Source of the DNA: a virus
Length of the DNA: 40,126 nt
Virus record (IMG/VR): IMGVR_UViG_3300043568_000184
Coordinates: 1 to 40,126 of that record
Strand: one strand, 5' to 3'
The notes under the pieces are model-generated. The model was not told the origin of the DNA and did not search any database. It saw nothing but the letters and a program-made list of their open reading frames with translations. Below are positions 3,865-39,358 of this stretch, one piece after another. Both the position numbers and the translations under genes were made by a program. Position 1 is the first letter of the stretch, and the number at the start of each line of letters is the position of its first letter.

Positions 3865-4325
3865 GTAAGATGAAGAGTGAGTGGGAAGATGAGTACTTCG
3901 GCGAGGGATACGTTTACATCGCAGGAGATTGGGGTCATACTGAACCTACTAAGGGACTTCGGGATAAAGATAGAGCACGTGAAGAGGCTAAGCAACGACA
4001 CCCTTCTTCAGGTAACCGTAAGTCTCCCACCCAAGAGGTAGATGAGTTCTGTCTACGCTTTGCGCTGTATGATATTCAAGATGAGTTAGCAGACATCTTG
4101 CTTAGCAAACACGAGGACTATGGTCCTAAGAATATTAGTGATGCACCTGGCGGTGCTCTCAATGGTATTCGTGTTCGTATGCACGACAAGGTAGCACGAC
4201 TTAATAACTTAATAGATAGTGGTAAAGAACCAAAGCATGAATCAATCCGAGACACACTCGTGGACATCGCCAACTATGCAACCATTGCAATCATGGTCAT
4301 AGATGACGTATGGGACACTGAGTAA
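3861..4325 (+). CDS. DUF1599-type (nucleotide modification associated) protein
   Basis: The C-terminal half contains LLSKHEDYGPKNI, GIRVRMHDKVARL and ESIRDTLVDIANYATI, the pattern of the DUF1599 / Nmad1 family, an all-helical fold linked to nucleotide metabolism in phages. The N-terminal 50 residues are charged and appear specific to this protein. ATG 3861 overlaps the primase stop. A role in trimming or modifying nucleotide pools is inferred from family context. The substrate is unknown. Confidence 0.65.
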   Translation: MSKMKSEWEDEYFGEGYVYIAGDWGHTEPTKGLRDKDRAREEAKQRHPSSGNRKSPTQEVDEFCLRFALYDIQDELADILLSKHEDYGPKNISDAPGGALNGIRVRMHDKVARLNNLIDSGKEPKHESIRDTLVDIANYATIAIMVIDDVWDTE

Positions 4326-4343: not shown

Positions 4344-5102
4344 ATGAAGCGTATCGTAGTACTATCCGACATGCAAATACCGTATAACGATAAACGTGCA
4401 ACTCGTGCAGTTATGAACTTTGTTGCAGACTACGAACCAGATGAGTTGTTCTGTGTAGGTGATGAGGCTGATAGCCCAGAACCTTCACGTTGGAACAAGG
4501 GTTTGGCTGGAGAGTTTGAAGGAACTCTACAGAAAGGTCTAGACGAAACGACCAAGATAATGACTGGCTTCAAGGAAGCCTTAGGCGACAAGCCTTTCCA
4601 TACAATGAGGAGTAATCATGGAGACAGAATTCAGAACTACGTCACACGATTTGCCCCTGCTCTTGCATCGTTACGTGACCTTGAGTATTCCAAGTTACTT
4701 AGGTACCGTGAGAATGAAATTACATATCACGATAAATTTTATCAGTTCACCCCAGGATGGATTCTCGCTCATGGAGATGAGGGTCGTGCCAACAAACAAC
4801 CTGGTGGGACTGCTCTTACCCTTGCTAAACAAATTGGGGCTTCGGTTATCTGCGGTCACACGCACAAGCAGGGTATACAACATGAACACACCGGCTTCGG
4901 TGGTCAGATTAGACACAAGTTATATGGGGTGGAAGTTGGCCATCTCATGGACATATCGCAAGCGCACTATCTCGGACAGACTGGTGCTAACTGGCAACAA
5001 GGATTCACTATACTCTACCAACGTAGAGGCAATGTAACCCCTGTCAATGTTCCAATCAATGGTCGCTCATTCGTAGTTGAGGGTAAGGTTTATGAGTTCT
5101 AA
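4344..5102 (+). CDS. Calcineurin-like metallophosphoesterase
   Basis: The metallophosphoesterase motifs occur in order: VVLSDMQIP (first Asp), ELFCVGDEAD (GD), RSNHGD (GNHD/E-like), WILAHGDE and VICGHTHKQG. The 252 residues match small phage phosphoesterases of this superfamily, which hydrolyse phosphodiesters or nucleotides with two metal ions. It lies in the replication operon, and AAGGA precedes the ATG. The substrate cannot be read from sequence; DNA-end or nucleotide processing would fit the neighbours. Confidence 0.85.
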   Translation: MKRIVVLSDMQIPYNDKRATRAVMNFVADYEPDELFCVGDEADSPEPSRWNKGLAGEFEGTLQKGLDETTKIMTGFKEALGDKPFHTMRSNHGDRIQNYVTRFAPALASLRDLEYSKLLRYRENEITYHDKFYQFTPGWILAHGDEGRANKQPGGTALTLAKQIGASVICGHTHKQGIQHEHTGFGGQIRHKLYGVEVGHLMDISQAHYLGQTGANWQQGFTILYQRRGNVTPVNVPINGRSFVVEGKVYEF

Positions 5103-30312: not shown

Positions 30313-32094
30313 TTATCCACCAAGTTGTGACAAGATTCCAGCCAAGTCCATAGGCGGTTGCCCCCCAGCAGGACCTGCAGGCGGAACTTGTTCCTCGGTC
30401 GGAGGTACTGGTTCTTCTGCTGGGGCAGCACCCTGACCCATAGACTGAGCAACCAGTTCTTCTGGTGACATCTGCGCAGGTACTTCTGGTTGTGCAGGCT
30501 GTGCTTCTGGTTTTGGTTTTTCAAATACCTTAACAACTGCCTCTTCAATTGCATTACCTTTACGGCGAAGGTCAATAACCTTTGCAATTTGTTCCACAAT
30601 ACCTGATGGGTCTTGTCCTTGCATAGCCATCTGTGGGATTGCTTGTGCTAAAGACGCTAGCGATGCTGATAATGAATCACGCATTCGCTCTATATCAATG
30701 CGCTCTTGTTCACCTGAAACATTCATGCTCCATGGTAACTCTCGCATGATAAAATCACGGGATACTAAATTGGCTTGCAAAGCCTGTAGTGAGAAGATAA
30801 GTGCACGTGATGGGTCAAGTCCAGCCATAAGACCGTAACGAACCTGAATGGTGTAGTCACCAGCAATGTCTTTTGCTGGGTCATACTTAAATTCATAAGG
30901 TGCACCATTAAAAGTTCCGCGTTGCTTCTTTTCACCTGGGAATAACTTTTCATCCATCTCAAAGCAAAGAGCAATTACTTCTTCAAGTGCTTCACCGATA
31001 ATCATCTGCATAGCCTTGATTTGGGAATCAAAGCCACCCATAAGTGCCTGAACACCAGAGCCAGTAATAACACTAGCATCAATGTTTCCGGAGCGACCTT
31101 CAGGGTAACGTGAACCCATACGCATTTCTGTTTCCAGAATCTGCTGTTCGGTAAATGCACCGGTAGGTAGTTCTAGTCCTACACGGCGTACACCTGCAGG
31201 GTTATTGGTACGAAGGATTGCATCAGGACCAAATGCAAACTCTTGTAAATCTTGGGGAACGACAATAGGAGCCTGAACTGATTTTTCGGCTGCTTCCATT
31301 GCCAGAAGGGAAAAGCGTGCTCGTGCAATCTGCACCCATAGCACATCATCAAACTGTCCACGTGGGTCGTCAACATCAATACCTGGGCGACGAGGCACGA
31401 CAACAGCAAGTTTGCCTAAAGGATTCTTTGCTTTACGCAACACCAATGAATCACGCTGTGGCAGGAACATGACGATTTGGTCTTTATCCTGGTAGTGCAT
31501 GACATCTAGTTCGGTGTTTAGGTCTTGGTCTTTGAAGCCAAGTTTACCTAGGATACGTGATTCGTACTCTGGGAAATCAACAATGAGTTCGCGAATAGTC
31601 TTCAAGTAACGCTTAGTGTATGAAACACATTTTCCATAGCGGTCATACTCTGGGTAAGCACCCATAGGGTTTTCTATGCGAATGCGTGGCATACGAGCCT
31701 CAAAGTCAGGCTCTACAACAATGGGCATGTAGGCATAGGTAAATGCCCAGTCTGCTCCAGTGTACATCTGGGTCTGTAACCCAGAATTCTGAACGTAGTT
31801 ATTAGCAATCATGCTTCGCTTATCTGAAGCCTTGCGAGCGGAATCGCTCGTGCTATTAACAGTTGAGCAGTTAAATGATGGCAGTGGTGCCAACACTTCT
31901 GCTAGGTCTCGTGCCACAACGTCACAGAAGTTAGCAATCATAGGCTTAGAGATGCCTTCAGGGAACATGTCTGGGTAGACTGCTTCCATGTTACCACGGC
32001 GAACCATAGTAATATCTCGCATGCGCTGGTCACGTGCAGAGTACCGGTCCTGAAGGGACAGTACCTTACCTGTGATTTGTTCAATACTTAGCAT
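30313..32094 (-). CDS. Portal protein
   Basis: The start chosen is ATG 32094 (MLSIEQITGK), eight bases after the end of the terminase-frame overlap and preceded by AAGG; a further upstream start would overlap terminase more. The 593-residue product contains the helical core and the long C-terminal helices with a Pro/Gln/Glu-rich tail typical of podovirus-type portals. The gene order terminase-portal-protease supports it. It forms the dodecameric channel through which DNA is packaged. Confidence 0.8.
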   Translation of the reverse strand: MLSIEQITGKVLSLQDRYSARDQRMRDITMVRRGNMEAVYPDMFPEGISKPMIANFCDVVARDLAEVLAPLPSFNCSTVNSTSDSARKASDKRSMIANNYVQNSGLQTQMYTGADWAFTYAYMPIVVEPDFEARMPRIRIENPMGAYPEYDRYGKCVSYTKRYLKTIRELIVDFPEYESRILGKLGFKDQDLNTELDVMHYQDKDQIVMFLPQRDSLVLRKAKNPLGKLAVVVPRRPGIDVDDPRGQFDDVLWVQIARARFSLLAMEAAEKSVQAPIVVPQDLQEFAFGPDAILRTNNPAGVRRVGLELPTGAFTEQQILETEMRMGSRYPEGRSGNIDASVITGSGVQALMGGFDSQIKAMQMIIGEALEEVIALCFEMDEKLFPGEKKQRGTFNGAPYEFKYDPAKDIAGDYTIQVRYGLMAGLDPSRALIFSLQALQANLVSRDFIMRELPWSMNVSGEQERIDIERMRDSLSASLASLAQAIPQMAMQGQDPSGIVEQIAKVIDLRRKGNAIEEAVVKVFEKPKPEAQPAQPEVPAQMSPEELVAQSMGQGAAPAEEPVPPTEEQVPPAGPAGGQPPMDLAGILSQLGG

Positions 32095-32101
32095 GATAGC
32101 C

Positions 32102-33988
32102 TTAAATGTAGAGTAATGATTGTTCTGCAGCAAGTTCGTCTAAGTCAAAGACTACTCGCTGTGCATCATTACGGCGTGTTGCGTACCTGTTGTATGTATG
32201 GTAAATCTTGTTACCTGATTGCTGTACAAGTTCTTTGGCGCGAAGTTCGCAGAACCAAAGAGCCATAACACAGTCGGTCTTGTTCTTGGTATCTGGCTTC
32301 CAAGTAATTAACTGGTTAACCAGAGCCTTGATGTGTTCATTCGTATTATCTGGTAATTCAATCAGGTTATCGTTTTGGTGCTTACCCTCACGGATAGAAC
32401 CAAATAGTCCTGACATACCAGCAACACCAAAGTTTGTGTCCCACTTGTTCTTACCAGTGAATTGCTCACTGAATCGGACACCCCGATTGGCAAGCCACAT
32501 ACGAAGGTCTTCATCCAACGCGAAGGCTTTTTGGAATGCGTTAATTTCAATACGCAGTTCCATCGGGTTATACTTGGTAACCCATTCTTCAATGAGGTTA
32601 CGAATCTTTGCTGGGGTTGGTTCTGTCATGTTAAACACATCTAGAACCATACGCTGGCCTGTTTGCCGTTCTACGGCATAGGCTACCATAGCAGAGTTAC
32701 CTACCATGGCTGGGTCAAATCCTAGGATGGTTACCCATTGTCCATCTCGTGGATGTCCTGGAGTACCGGGCTTGATAGTACCAGGCTTGCGCATGCGGTT
32801 GATACACGCATTAACGGAGATAAGTGGGAAGATTGCATCTTCTTCCACATCTTGCTGCTGGTATACAAGAGCCCAAGTAGAAGGGTTAACTTCACTGCGG
32901 CGGTGGAATAGTCTCTTGCCATCCCACTTCGGGAAGTATCCATTTTCATCCTGTACTAAAAGTTCTGCGTCGTACTCTGGGTCTGCCCCATCCCATACAC
33001 GGTCCGAGTGGGGCCATAGGGTTACCCAGTTCTCTGGCTTGTCCGCATACTCCAGAACCGCTGGCATAGCCAGGTAGGTGAATGGGGACTTGTCGCCAGA
33101 CCAGTTATCTGGGTTTCTAATCTCTTTGTAGAGGTCTACAGAGGATACACGGGTACCTGCAATAACTAGGGTACCGGTAGCACCCACACGGGTGATAACC
33201 ATCTTCTGTAGCCAGTTAAGTTGCTTTTCCCATTCATGGGCGTTGGTAGTAGTGATAACGTCATCTAGGATGATGAGGTCCGCGCGAGTACCGTAAATCT
33301 GTTGACCCATACCAATAGCCTGTACGGTAGGGTCTTTCTCGCCAGAGTCGCGCTCTAGGTAGATTCTATCCTGAGTCCACTGGTCTGCGGTGGCTTGGTA
33401 GCCTCCAGCAGGTCCATAGACGGATTGCATCTTAGCCCAAGCAGGCTCGGTGAGCCGTTGCTTGATTGAGAAGAGAAATTCCTTGGCGCGAGCCTGAGTC
33501 TGGGAAACTACCACAATACGGATATTTGGGTCCATAGCGATACGGTAGGCAGCATAGCCTACAGTTAGGACCGTGGACTTGGCATGCTCAGGGGGTACGT
33601 TAATTAGCAGGCGACGACGGTTGCCTGGCTCATAGGTCATGGACTCATGCAGGTAGGTAGGCTCGTTACCCTCTAGAACGTCAATCCAAGACTGATGGTG
33701 TGGGAACACCTCAGAGTTTAGGAACTCCTTGGAGAACGTGGCGTAGTCGATATTCTTGCCAGAGGCTAGAGTCTCACCGAATAGTTTATTGGATTCTGTC
33801 CGCGCGGCTTCTAGACGCGAGGCAAACCTCCCATCTCGGAGCCATGTCTTTAGGGCAGGCAGTTTACGGCCTGTTAGTCCTAGGGCGGTATGTTCGTCAA
33901 TACCGGAGGCTACAGAGGCTAGGAACGCAGCCTGGTCCTGTTCGCGCCTTACTGTGAAGTGATGGTTCTCTCCGCTTTTAGCAGACAC
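32102..33988 (-). CDS. Terminase large subunit
   Basis: The start chosen is GTG 33988, with GAGG six bases upstream; a TTG at 34012 would extend it without such a site. The ATPase domain shows LLINVPPEHAKST (Walker A-like), RIVVVSQTQARAKE and ADLIILDDVIT (Walker B). The nuclease domain shows ILGFDPAMVGNSAMV and LRIEINAFQKA, with acidic metal ligands. It packages DNA through the portal. No small-subunit gene is recognisable; the N-terminal 80 residues, with a possible helix-turn-helix (HTALGLTGRKLPALKTWLRD), may substitute for DNA recognition. Confidence 0.9.
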   Translation of the reverse strand: MSAKSGENHHFTVRREQDQAAFLASVASGIDEHTALGLTGRKLPALKTWLRDGRFASRLEAARTESNKLFGETLASGKNIDYATFSKEFLNSEVFPHHQSWIDVLEGNEPTYLHESMTYEPGNRRRLLINVPPEHAKSTVLTVGYAAYRIAMDPNIRIVVVSQTQARAKEFLFSIKQRLTEPAWAKMQSVYGPAGGYQATADQWTQDRIYLERDSGEKDPTVQAIGMGQQIYGTRADLIILDDVITTTNAHEWEKQLNWLQKMVITRVGATGTLVIAGTRVSSVDLYKEIRNPDNWSGDKSPFTYLAMPAVLEYADKPENWVTLWPHSDRVWDGADPEYDAELLVQDENGYFPKWDGKRLFHRRSEVNPSTWALVYQQQDVEEDAIFPLISVNACINRMRKPGTIKPGTPGHPRDGQWVTILGFDPAMVGNSAMVAYAVERQTGQRMVLDVFNMTEPTPAKIRNLIEEWVTKYNPMELRIEINAFQKAFALDEDLRMWLANRGVRFSEQFTGKNKWDTNFGVAGMSGLFGSIREGKHQNDNLIELPDNTNEHIKALVNQLITWKPDTKNKTDCVMALWFCELRAKELVQQSGNKIYHTYNRYATRRNDAQRVVFDLDELAAEQSLLYI

Positions 33989-34160
33989 AATTAACCTCGT
34001 AAAACTAGACAATAAAAACTACATATAAAGCACCGCGCCAGGCGGTGCGTATTTGGTTATGTTCTGTGTCCCGTCAGGGGACACTAATAATATAAAACCA
34101 TACACTTATACTAACCCCATTATGGTATACCCCGTAACGCATTAGTATCTAATTATTTTT

Positions 34161-34178
34161 ATGTGACTTGTGTCACAT
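34161..34178. promoter_or_regulatory. CRP/GlxR-like palindrome (TGTGA-N6-TCACA)
   Basis: ATGTGAC-TTGT-GTCACAT is an 18-bp perfect inverted repeat containing the exact TGTGA-N6-TCACA core bound by CRP-family regulators, including actinobacterial Crp and GlxR. It lies about 175 bases upstream of the terminase start and 520 upstream of the helix-turn-helix gene. Binding by a host cAMP receptor is inferred. Confidence 0.5.
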
Positions 34179-34293
34179 GAGAAAAACCCTTACAACATAA
34201 GCACATCCCATCAATAACAGCACAAAAAAATAAGGGTGAGTCATGGTGGGGTGTGTGGGGCATGGTTCAAGCACTGGGGGTCAAGTTGTTATT

Positions 34294-34313
34294 GACAATG
34301 ATAATCATTCTCA
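34294..34313. promoter_or_regulatory. Fur/Zur-like box
   Basis: GACAATGATAATCATTCTC (34294-34312) matches 17 of 19 positions of the classical Fur box GATAATGATAATCATTATC. The inner TGATAATCATTCTCA (34299-34313) has the TGAnAATnATTnTCA symmetry seen in actinobacterial Zur sites. It overlaps a TTGACA hexamer at 34292-34297. Control by a host metal regulator is inferred, not shown. Confidence 0.4.
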
Positions 34314-34445
34314 TTATGTCACCTTTCGGTGACGTGTACCCACCCCTAGTTAGGTGGGGTAGGTGGGTATTCATTAAGTGCCTTGAATTGTTAAGGGTGA
34401 CTATCTGCATGGGTGAATCGGTGGCAGGTGGCAGGGGTTGAGATT

Positions 34446-34461
34446 GGTTTCACGTGAAACA
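34446..34461. other. parS-like centromere site
   Basis: GGTTTCACGTGAAACA matches 15 of 16 bases of the chromosomal ParB site TGTTTCACGTGAAACA and contains the full 14-bp palindrome GTTTCACGTGAAAC used in actinobacteria. No ParA or ParB gene was found in the window, so host ParB would be the ligand. It lies 225 bases upstream of the helix-turn-helix gene. Confidence 0.75.
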
Positions 34462-34468
34462 TTGAACC

Positions 34469-34484
34469 CTGACAGTACCGTCAG
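34469..34484. promoter_or_regulatory. Dispersed 16-bp palindrome, copy 1
   Basis: CTGACAGTACCGTCAG, one asymmetric pair from a perfect palindrome. It lies 8 bases after the parS site and 32 bases upstream of the -35 of the promoter at 34517. It is the first of seven copies in the right arm. Confidence 0.7.
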
Positions 34485-34516
34485 AATCCCCAATGAATTG
34501 GGGTTATTGGTTCAAG

Positions 34517-34546
34517 TTGACATTGAAAGAAAAGTATGCGCATAAT
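34517..34546 (+). promoter_or_regulatory. Promoter of the helix-turn-helix gene
   Basis: A consensus -35 TTGACA (34517-34522) is followed by 18 bases and CATAAT (5 of 6 to TATAAT) at 34541-34546. Transcription would start near 34553, giving a leader of about 130 bases that includes the stem structure at 34625-34677. Confidence 0.65.
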
Positions 34547-34624
34547 TAGACATGCTCTGAATCCTCGAATGAGGTACATGGTTCAGGCGCATTGGTAATT
34601 TGAAAATTGAAAAGTGTGTATCTG

Positions 34625-34680
34625 CCTAGTGGTTATACCTTGCCCGAAAGATTTTCGGGTCGGGTGTTTCCACTAGGAGG
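34625..34680 (+). promoter_or_regulatory. Structured leader overlapping the Shine-Dalgarno
   Basis: CCTAGTGG (34625-34632) pairs perfectly with CCACTAGG (34670-34677), enclosing a perfect CCCGAAA-GAT-TTTCGGG hairpin (34643-34659). The Shine-Dalgarno AGGAGG (34675-34680) shares three bases with the outer stem, so opening and closing of the stem could control translation of the gene at 34686. The ligand or trigger is unknown. Confidence 0.6.
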
Positions 34681-34685
34681 AAATT

Positions 34686-35288
34686 ATGTCGAATCAACTA
34701 TTCGAAAACGCCGTTAAGGCTTGCAAGTCCGCCATGTCACTAAGCAACGAAACCGAGGCATTAAGTAAGCACCTCGAAACCCTGCAAGGTGAAACCGTGA
34801 GTGCCGTTGAAATCGCGTGTGCCGAGTCGTACGCGTGGTTTATCAGCGTCAATCGCAAGCATGGGGCTAAGCAGGATTTGGCAACCGCGTCAGGCGTATC
34901 AGGTAAGACTATCGGGCGTTGGATAGCGTCAGGTCATGTCGCACTTGTAACCGAAGGCAAGGCAACCGCATCACAAGTTAATTCTGCAATCGGCAACTAC
35001 TCAATGAAAATTGCTGAAGTTGAAAGAGTGCAGACATTAACCGAATGGCGCAACCTGCTTAAGGCTTACAAGGCCGTAAACAAGTCAGGCGCGGGCAAGG
35101 TAGTAGGCAAGGCCGAAACCACCGAGGCAACCGCTAAGGCAACTAAGGGTTGGAAGTCACACGCTGAAAACCTTGTTAAGTCAATCGAATCAGGTGAAGT
35201 CGGACTAATGGAAGTAATGGATTACATGACAGAATTAGTCAGCAATCTAGGGCTATCCATTGACGACATGGAAGAAATCGCAATCTAG
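34686..35288 (+). CDS. Helix-turn-helix DNA-binding protein, regulator candidate
   Basis: This 200-residue product has a helix-turn-helix around residues 61-85 (AKQDLATASGVSGKTIGRWI), followed by a helical, Lys/Ala-rich part and an acidic C-terminus (SIDDMEEIAI). AGGAGG lies directly upstream at the correct distance. It is the first rightward gene, with its own promoter, structured leader and terminator, so it is a single-gene transcript. It may bind the 16-bp palindromes, the 11-bp repeats downstream, or both. A replication initiator or repressor are the main alternatives; no family is firmly recognised. Confidence 0.7.
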   Translation: MSNQLFENAVKACKSAMSLSNETEALSKHLETLQGETVSAVEIACAESYAWFISVNRKHGAKQDLATASGVSGKTIGRWIASGHVALVTEGKATASQVNSAIGNYSMKIAEVERVQTLTEWRNLLKAYKAVNKSGAGKVVGKAETTEATAKATKGWKSHAENLVKSIESGEVGLMEVMDYMTELVSNLGLSIDDMEEIAI

Positions 35289-35344: not shown

Positions 35345-35360
35345 CTGACAGTACTGTCAG
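35345..35360. promoter_or_regulatory. Dispersed 16-bp palindrome, copy 2
   Basis: CTGACAGTACTGTCAG is a perfect palindrome lying 10 bases after the terminator T-run and 12 bases before the tandem repeats. Confidence 0.7.
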
Positions 35361-35372
35361 ACCTATCTCTTT

Positions 35373-35438
35373 GCTGGTGTATGACTGGTGTGTGGCTGGT
35401 GTATTGCTGTTGTTTTGCTGGTGTATTACTGATGTGCG
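35373..35438. repeat. Six 11-bp tandem repeats (iteron-like)
   Basis: Units are GCTGGTGTATG, ACTGGTGTGTG, GCTGGTGTATT, GCTGTTGTTTT, GCTGGTGTATT and ACTGATGTGCG, giving consensus RCTGGTGTATT. The 11-bp period keeps sites on one face of the helix, as in plasmid iterons and cooperative operator arrays. The array lies between the helix-turn-helix gene and the next operon and holds no credible gene. Confidence 0.8.
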
Positions 35439-35472
35439 ACTTGACTTGAGAATAGAATGGATAGGTGGTAGA

Positions 35473-38577: not shown

Positions 38578-38880
38578 ATGACCGAGACTATTAAGATTAC
38601 ATATGAAGTTGAGTACTTCTACCATGAGATACTCAAGGACATGCTGGACAGTGGTGAGTATGGGTTGGGACAGCATCCTGTAACTGACGAGGCTATTATA
38701 TACAATGCACTAGACAAGTTCATTACCATGAGCGGTGGTATCCCTATGATTCCATCAGCCCTTGACCAAGCAGGTGTACTCACAGTAGAAGATGATAGGG
38801 GAGAACTTCTCTATCAATTCCCAGGGTACAACACACTAGCGCAAAGAGAGGATGACCATGATTCGCGAGTATTTCAATGA
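38578..38880 (+). CDS. Hypothetical protein (100 aa)
   Basis: The product TETIKITYEVEYFYHEILKD continues with EAIIYNALDKFITMSGG and GVLTVEDDRGELLYQFPG. A mixed alpha/beta small acidic protein is suggested. It starts one base after the amidotransferase stop and overlaps the WhiB-like gene by 23 bases. The family is unknown. Confidence 0.6.
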   Translation: MTETIKITYEVEYFYHEILKDMLDSGEYGLGQHPVTDEAIIYNALDKFITMSGGIPMIPSALDQAGVLTVEDDRGELLYQFPGYNTLAQREDDHDSRVFQ

Positions 38881-39358
38881 GGTTATGCTTGACGTAAGGT
38901 CAATCGCTGCCGAATCAAAGATAGATTTGTTTGAGTTCCGGTCGCGAGACGGTGGTAACCCTGCCTCCATGCCGGTCAGAAATCGCCAGAAGATGAGTGA
39001 CTTGGTGCTTGAACTACCTGACTTTGAGAATGCATCATGCAAGGGCATTGGACATCAGGCTTTCTATGATGATGGACTAGAGGTTGAAGCACCGATAGAC
39101 CAAGACGATACAATCTGGTCCTCAAACAAGCCAGTGCAACATGCATACCTCAGGCGTATGTGTCTGTCATGTCCAGTAGTACAAGAGTGCAGGGAGTGGG
39201 GCATAACACGTGAGAGGTATGGGTTCTGGGGTGGCATGACTGCTACTGAACGTGAGTCAGAGCGCATCATGCGTGGCATCAGAGTCAATGAGATAGACTA
39301 TCAAGTACACATAGGAAAGGTAGAAGTTAATATGGGAGGTGATGAAGATGAGCAATAG
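38858..39358 (+). CDS. WhiB-like transcriptional regulator
   Basis: The start chosen is ATG 38858, six bases after AGAGAGG; ATG 38852 is the alternative. Cys61, Cys102, Cys105 and Cys111 (SCKG, then MCLSCPVVQEC) give the four iron-sulphur ligands, followed by GFWGGMTATERE, the WhiB signature turn that contacts sigma factor. WhiB proteins are restricted to actinobacteria and their phages, where they bind the primary sigma factor and alter transcription. It is near the end of the small-gene operon. The N-terminal 55 residues are longer than in minimal WhiB proteins. Confidence 0.85.
   Translation: MIREYFNEVMLDVRSIAAESKIDLFEFRSRDGGNPASMPVRNRQKMSDLVLELPDFENASCKGIGHQAFYDDGLEVEAPIDQDDTIWSSNKPVQHAYLRRMCLSCPVVQECREWGITRERYGFWGGMTATERESERIMRGIRVNEIDYQVHIGKVEVNMGGDEDEQ

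Follow-up and report, generated by a model that had tools for sequence, protein, structure and literature searches.

The ParB–parS system is among the most conserved in bacteria: in a CTP-gated reaction ParB loads at parS, slides along the DNA, and engages ParA and SMC. The Bacillus phage phi29 carries parS-like DNA. PMC9437464 (citing Meijer et al. 2005) reports that phi29 uses the host ParB protein Spo0J, an example of a virulent-type phage that lacks Par genes of its own and leaves the handling of its genome to host ParB. Among actinophages, the cluster A mycobacteriophages RedRock and Miko carry parS and lack an integrase, and phages of the RedRock type encode both ParA and ParB and have parS sites formed by arrays of 8-bp direct repeats (PMC7157519). 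Host regulation is also drawn on by alphaproteobacterial phages with lytic deferment, which have an intergenic region with sites for the host cell-cycle regulator CtrA (PMC9437464), though CtrA is a transcription factor whereas ParB is a segregation clamp.

Here we describe a candidate host-ParB loading site, probably a genuine chromosomal-type parS whose most likely benefit would be genome positioning, in the window, which is the whole 40,126-bp viral record analysed. Like phi29, this phage has neither an integrase nor parAB. Phi29 differs in having a protein-primed linear genome, a spore-forming Firmicute host, and a coupling to Spo0A and sporulation, whereas the present phage is tailed and apparently circularly permuted, probably infects a non-sporulating oligotroph, and is only predicted to be bound by ParB. 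The mycobacteriophage parABS, which the sequence-only reading had offered for comparison, turned out not to be the nearest system: RedRock-type repeats are read by a phage ParB, whereas the window has a single host-type palindrome with no parA or parB and no tandem 8-bp direct repeats, so we rejected a phage-encoded parABS of this type and regard phi29 as nearer.

The parS site and the phage that carries it

Re-reading positions 34446–34461 bore out the claimed match and intact palindrome: GGTTTCACGTGAAACA agrees with the consensus TGTTTCACGTGAAACA at 15 of 16 bases, and its 14-bp core is the perfect palindrome GTTTCACGTGAAAC (Table 1). The one mismatch is irrelevant and marks no defect, because the outermost bases vary among host sites. 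Judged by its letters, the site fits the definition of a chromosomal-type parS, with the palindrome corresponding to the ParB core of the likely hosts. The core occurs once in the window, where a search allowing up to one mismatch revealed no additional copies and a second-order Markov model predicts only 0.00018 occurrences. At three mismatches, for which shuffled sequence gives an expectation of 0.27, the sole further match was a non-palindromic one at 30706 with three mismatches. No ORF of at least 60 aa spans the site, which is intergenic, with the leftward terminase operon on one side and a rightward regulator on the other; the surrounding control region likewise separates the leftward terminase/virion operon from the rightward early genes.

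Table 1. Features of the parS region and of the phage, with positions in the window
Feature	Position	Strand	Details
Host-type parS, GGTTTCACGTGAAACA	34446..34461	.	Perfect 14-bp palindrome at 34447-34460
Divergent intergenic control region, includes parS	34013..34685	.	Aligned in relatives
Terminase large subunit, first gene of leftward operon	32102..34012	-	PHROG 38, E=1.8e-63
P0001, 200-aa helix-turn-helix regulator, downstream of parS	34686..35288	+	Without ParB_N domain
Palindromic operator, CTGACAGTACCGTCAG	34469..34484	.	Separated from parS by 7 bp; seven copies in all, this being the first
Sigma-70-like promoter before P0001, TTGACA-18-CATAAT	34517..34546	+	11/12 match; 55 bp downstream of parS
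Fur/Zur-box-like site, GACAATGATAATCATTCTC	34294..34312	.	17/19 to Fur box, 0 expected
Strong leader hairpin before P0001	34621..34681	+	-37.8 kcal/mol, z -7.0
WhiB-like protein, actinophage marker	38852..39358	+	PF02467, E=3.3e-11

The record is close to complete, as an imperfect ~97-bp repeat (positions 62 and 40031) joins its ends. The terminase and portal head a leftward set of virion genes, and the early genes point rightward and continue across the record ends, encoding WhiB, a Cas4-type exonuclease, a DnaB-like helicase, a RusA-like resolvase, a split primase, a metallophosphoesterase, and a sigma-like factor. Annotations of ZooBear and Manuel (Streptomyces Beephvirinae) show the same gene plan. 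The best terL matches were the Planktophila phages LanE43AprE7 and AprF5 (52% identical), which lyse 'Ca. Planktophila' LanE-43 (PMC10202952), so phage relatedness makes a Nanopelagicales-type host likely; the WhiB gene and a GC content of 45% add to this host link. From its genes we identify the phage as an actinophage related to the lytic 'Ca. Planktophila' phages and the Streptomyces Beephvirinae, and it is probably a small virus of freshwater actinobacteria. A terminase profile run against bacterial genomes, in search of prophages or a host, gave no match, and neither did a nucleotide comparison of the 25–40 kb stretch with cultured phages. The GC skew minimum (31.5 kb) and T-A maximum (33,979) both track gene orientation, so no origin can be placed from skew.

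Profile searches, all run with working positive controls, detected no ParB_N (PF02195), HTH_ParB (PF17762), ParA/AAA_31 (PF13614), or tyrosine integrase (PF00589) domain, either here or in the two parS-carrying relatives of full length that were searched, upholding the earlier claim that the phage encodes no ParA or ParB, and PHROG scans of ~40 ORFs found no lysogeny genes. The regulator beside the site, P0001, was considered as a ParB and set aside: profile searches detected neither the ParB_N CTPase domain nor a match to HTH_ParB. Its top Foldseek matches were to ParB-type HTH domains (SopB, Noc, VirB, KorB, and P1 ParB), all below significance (E > 0.3). Its sequence profile weakly favours a LacI-type HTH (E=0.007).

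Occurrence in hosts, relatives, and other viral contigs

Genomes of LanE-43 and its relatives were gathered with a 16S pattern, which recovered LanE-43 itself. The exact parS core was present in 113 of 151 Nanopelagicales genomes, nearly always in one or two copies, and a reversed-core control was found in none of the 151. Within the gidB-parA-parB locus of LanE-43, the beginning of gidB holds the exact core (position 3951), and the beginning of parA, the neighbour of parB, holds a copy with one mismatch (position 4538). The phage thus shares an identical 14-bp core with the LanE-43 chromosomal ParABS, but its site stands alone in an intergenic control region whereas LanE-43 has its sites within gidB and parA, next to parAB. 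Among 36 host sites the bases immediately flanking the core differ from site to site, and the G..A pair that flanks the phage core is the commonest (5/36).

The expectation that related phages would conserve the site at this place held in part. Among 13 close relatives with sequence at the parS spot, the window included, an identical parS occupies the same place in four (the window, L222, L219, and L215), representing about three lineages; L222 is nearly the same phage as the window. The site is absent from the other nine (L009, L022, L212, L213, L214, L217, L218, L223, and L309), from the more distant relatives searched (terminase 66–80% identical), and from the cultured phages E7/F5, ZooBear, and Manuel. 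It is therefore an optional, dispensable element in this phage clade. Where retained, parS looks to be under selection, because the window and L215 agree at every base of a 20-bp stretch while its flanks are only 68% and 57% identical and the regulator and operators belong to different classes. That parS was kept while this class changed also shows that the palindrome is not the operator of P0001, which we rejected as the parS-binding protein.

At the parS position, L022 instead has TTTACCAGG-11-CCTGGTAAA repeats and L223 a repeated ACCAGGTGAATCCC, as if the position turns over protein-binding sites among relatives.

The same sequence is widespread in viral contigs. Scanning IMG/VR for the 14-bp core gave at least 148 copies, and among the matches listed 94/148 had T..A at the outer positions, as in the general consensus, far above the chance level of 1/16, so most of these matches are true parS sites. 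The G..A/T..C flanks, the class to which the window belongs, accounted for 14 of the matches listed against ~3 expected from background cells. An exhaustive scan for TGGTTTCACGTGAAACAT, the 18-mer of the window, found 99 copies on 96 stretches in ~49 distinct contexts, and a composition-matched control palindrome had 1 copy, an over-representation of ~50–100-fold. The Markov expectation, the relatives, and the IMG/VR counts all indicate that parS is over-represented and maintained relative to random sequence. ParB_N was absent from 48 of the 50 18-mer records tested and 41 of the 46 core records tested, such that ~90% of the viral records tested have no ParB domain, a provisional figure as many records are fragments and some could include host flanks.

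Some viral sites recur in similar settings. In one recurrent group (20 copies), TTGGTT and TATAAT, spaced 17 bp apart, enclose parS, and in another it lies just upstream of TTGACA before a scaffold-like/capsid gene pair. Nucleotide and protein searches with two recurrent parS families returned no or only remote matches. A recurrent viral group (L323, L333, L346, L366, L382, and similar) has contigs of up to 115 kb with GC ~0.36 and holds parS within a promoter spacer (TATAGGCCTACTTGGTTTCACGTGAAACATGGAGTATAATAC). Five viral contigs (L102, L114, L159, L172, and L187) have three to five parS cores each, and ParB_N was not detected in the records of the first three.

Possible roles of the site

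Recruitment of host ParB is the most economical reading of the locus, because the core of the likely hosts is exact, parAB is absent, and the site is in place in some relatives. These points sustain the recruitment proposed from the letters alone, which is weakened by the absence of the site from most relatives. Its single copy also counts against recruitment, as many replicons carry several parS copies. In an infected cell, the CTP-dependent clamp ParB of the host would load onto phage DNA at 34446–34461 and slide across the adjoining control region, and the known biochemistry of ParB predicts that this region would become coated. With neither ParA nor ParB made by the phage, every trans-acting part would be the host's. 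Most likely, the coated genome would then engage the host ParA/SMC segregation apparatus, which would keep or place it with the nucleoid ahead of or between lytic rounds, as reported for phi29 and Spo0J (PMC9437464, citing Meijer et al. 2005), and ParB spreading would probably influence the neighbouring divergent promoters too. The single copy of the site, its optional presence, and its independence of regulator class lead us to rank positioning slightly higher than promoter modulation.

More tentatively, host parS without Par proteins may be a widespread and repeatedly evolved strategy of unrelated ParB-less phages, a generalization that we consider possible rather than probable. ParB clamps would in such phages sense the host chromosome or CTP state or position the genome, some of them inside promoters, and this actinophage would be one case, with parS beside a host-type Fur/Zur site in one control hub. 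In the open-access literature the only precedent that we found for a host-type parS on a ParB-less phage was phi29 (PMC9437464), an absence that is weak evidence. If Par-less phages routinely carry the host site, ParB would be a common phage–host interface, and one could test directly whether host segregation proteins position phage genomes or time phage development. Both strain LanE-43 and its phages have been cultured (PMC10202952), and the ~49 distinct 18-mer contexts are a ready comparative set.

It is also conceivable, though on balance unlikely, that host ParB acts here purely on transcription and has no partition role. Bound or spreading ParB would then repress or time the divergent promoters, P0001 rightward and the terminase operon leftward, tying phage development to the state of the host chromosome or nucleotide pool. 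The placement of parS is in keeping with this, the 11/12 promoter lying 55 bp downstream of it and a regulator operator 7 bp away, as is an unrelated viral group (L323, L346, L382, and relatives) in which parS sits in the -35/-10 spacer with a perfect TATAAT end. The Fur/Zur box is a second host-type site in the same region and suggests a hub that reads host factors; because boxes of this type are common to host ZIP-transporter/Fur-family promoters, the region seems to gather host factors, and this keeps a regulatory reading alive. Phi29 with Spo0A and alphaproteobacterial phages with CtrA offer precedents (PMC9437464). Compact phage genomes, however, put sites near promoters anyway, and promoter proximity across distinct intergenic viral parS sites was marginal (20/83 versus 16% at random intergenic positions) and biased, since the parS motif itself yields -35-like hexamers, so we dropped promoter enrichment as an argument. 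Within the control region itself, the number of sigma-70-like matches was not above that in shuffles.

The palindrome might instead be an operator for some other phage or host DNA-binding protein that merely resembles parS, as palindromes that bind proteins abound in the region and some relatives without parS, such as L022, hold other repeats there. We find this improbable given the 14-bp identity to the parS core of the host order and the persistence of the palindrome with both P0001/operator classes; besides P0001, the phage has no clear candidate binder with one site. Still less convincing is a decoy, in which replicating phage copies would titrate host ParB and disturb host segregation or the loading of SMC at oriC: the host has one or two parS sites, fewer than the tens of copies that a phage would bring, but each phage has one site with no sign of amplification, and the benefit expected for a lytic phage is unclear. 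A functionless chance occurrence, which would fit the lack of parS in most relatives, is the least credible explanation, being expected 0.0002 times per genome and at odds with identity in about three lineages despite diverged flanks and with the 18-mer excess in viral contigs.

Other elements of the control region

The operator beside parS is repeated beyond the control region, with further CTGACAGTACCGTCAG-type 16-bp palindromes at 35345, 35506, 35721, 36446, 38356, and 38503. The HTH class of P0001 agrees with the operator class in 10/10 relatives, KTIGR[WY] pairing with CTGAC..GTCAG and MTVSRY/MAVSRY with CTAAC..GTTAG, and nearly all operator copies of one genome switch class together. This covariation likely determines specificity within a so far undescribed family of phage regulators. 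Behind the P0001 gene, at 35370–35441, about six 11-bp repeats (CTGGTGTRTKR) form an iteron-like array, possibly a replication or protein-binding element, that most relatives do not share.

The Fur/Zur-box-like sequence ATTGACAATGATAATCATTCTCATT (34291–34315) is present also in L217, L221, L222, and L309, and its 13-bp core precedes a ZIP metal transporter/Fur-family operon in seven of nine Nanopelagicales loci. An Rfam scan of the control region gave nothing near gathering thresholds. The 3' arm of the leader hairpin extends into the Shine-Dalgarno of P0001, and its stem changes on both arms in relatives, for example from CCCGAAA/TTTCGGG to CCCAAAA/TTTTGGG. Two adjoining hairpins were detected at 34316–34370 (z -4.3), and the first stem covaries among relatives as GTCACC/GGTGAC, GTCGGC/GCCGAC, and GTTGCC/GGCAAC.
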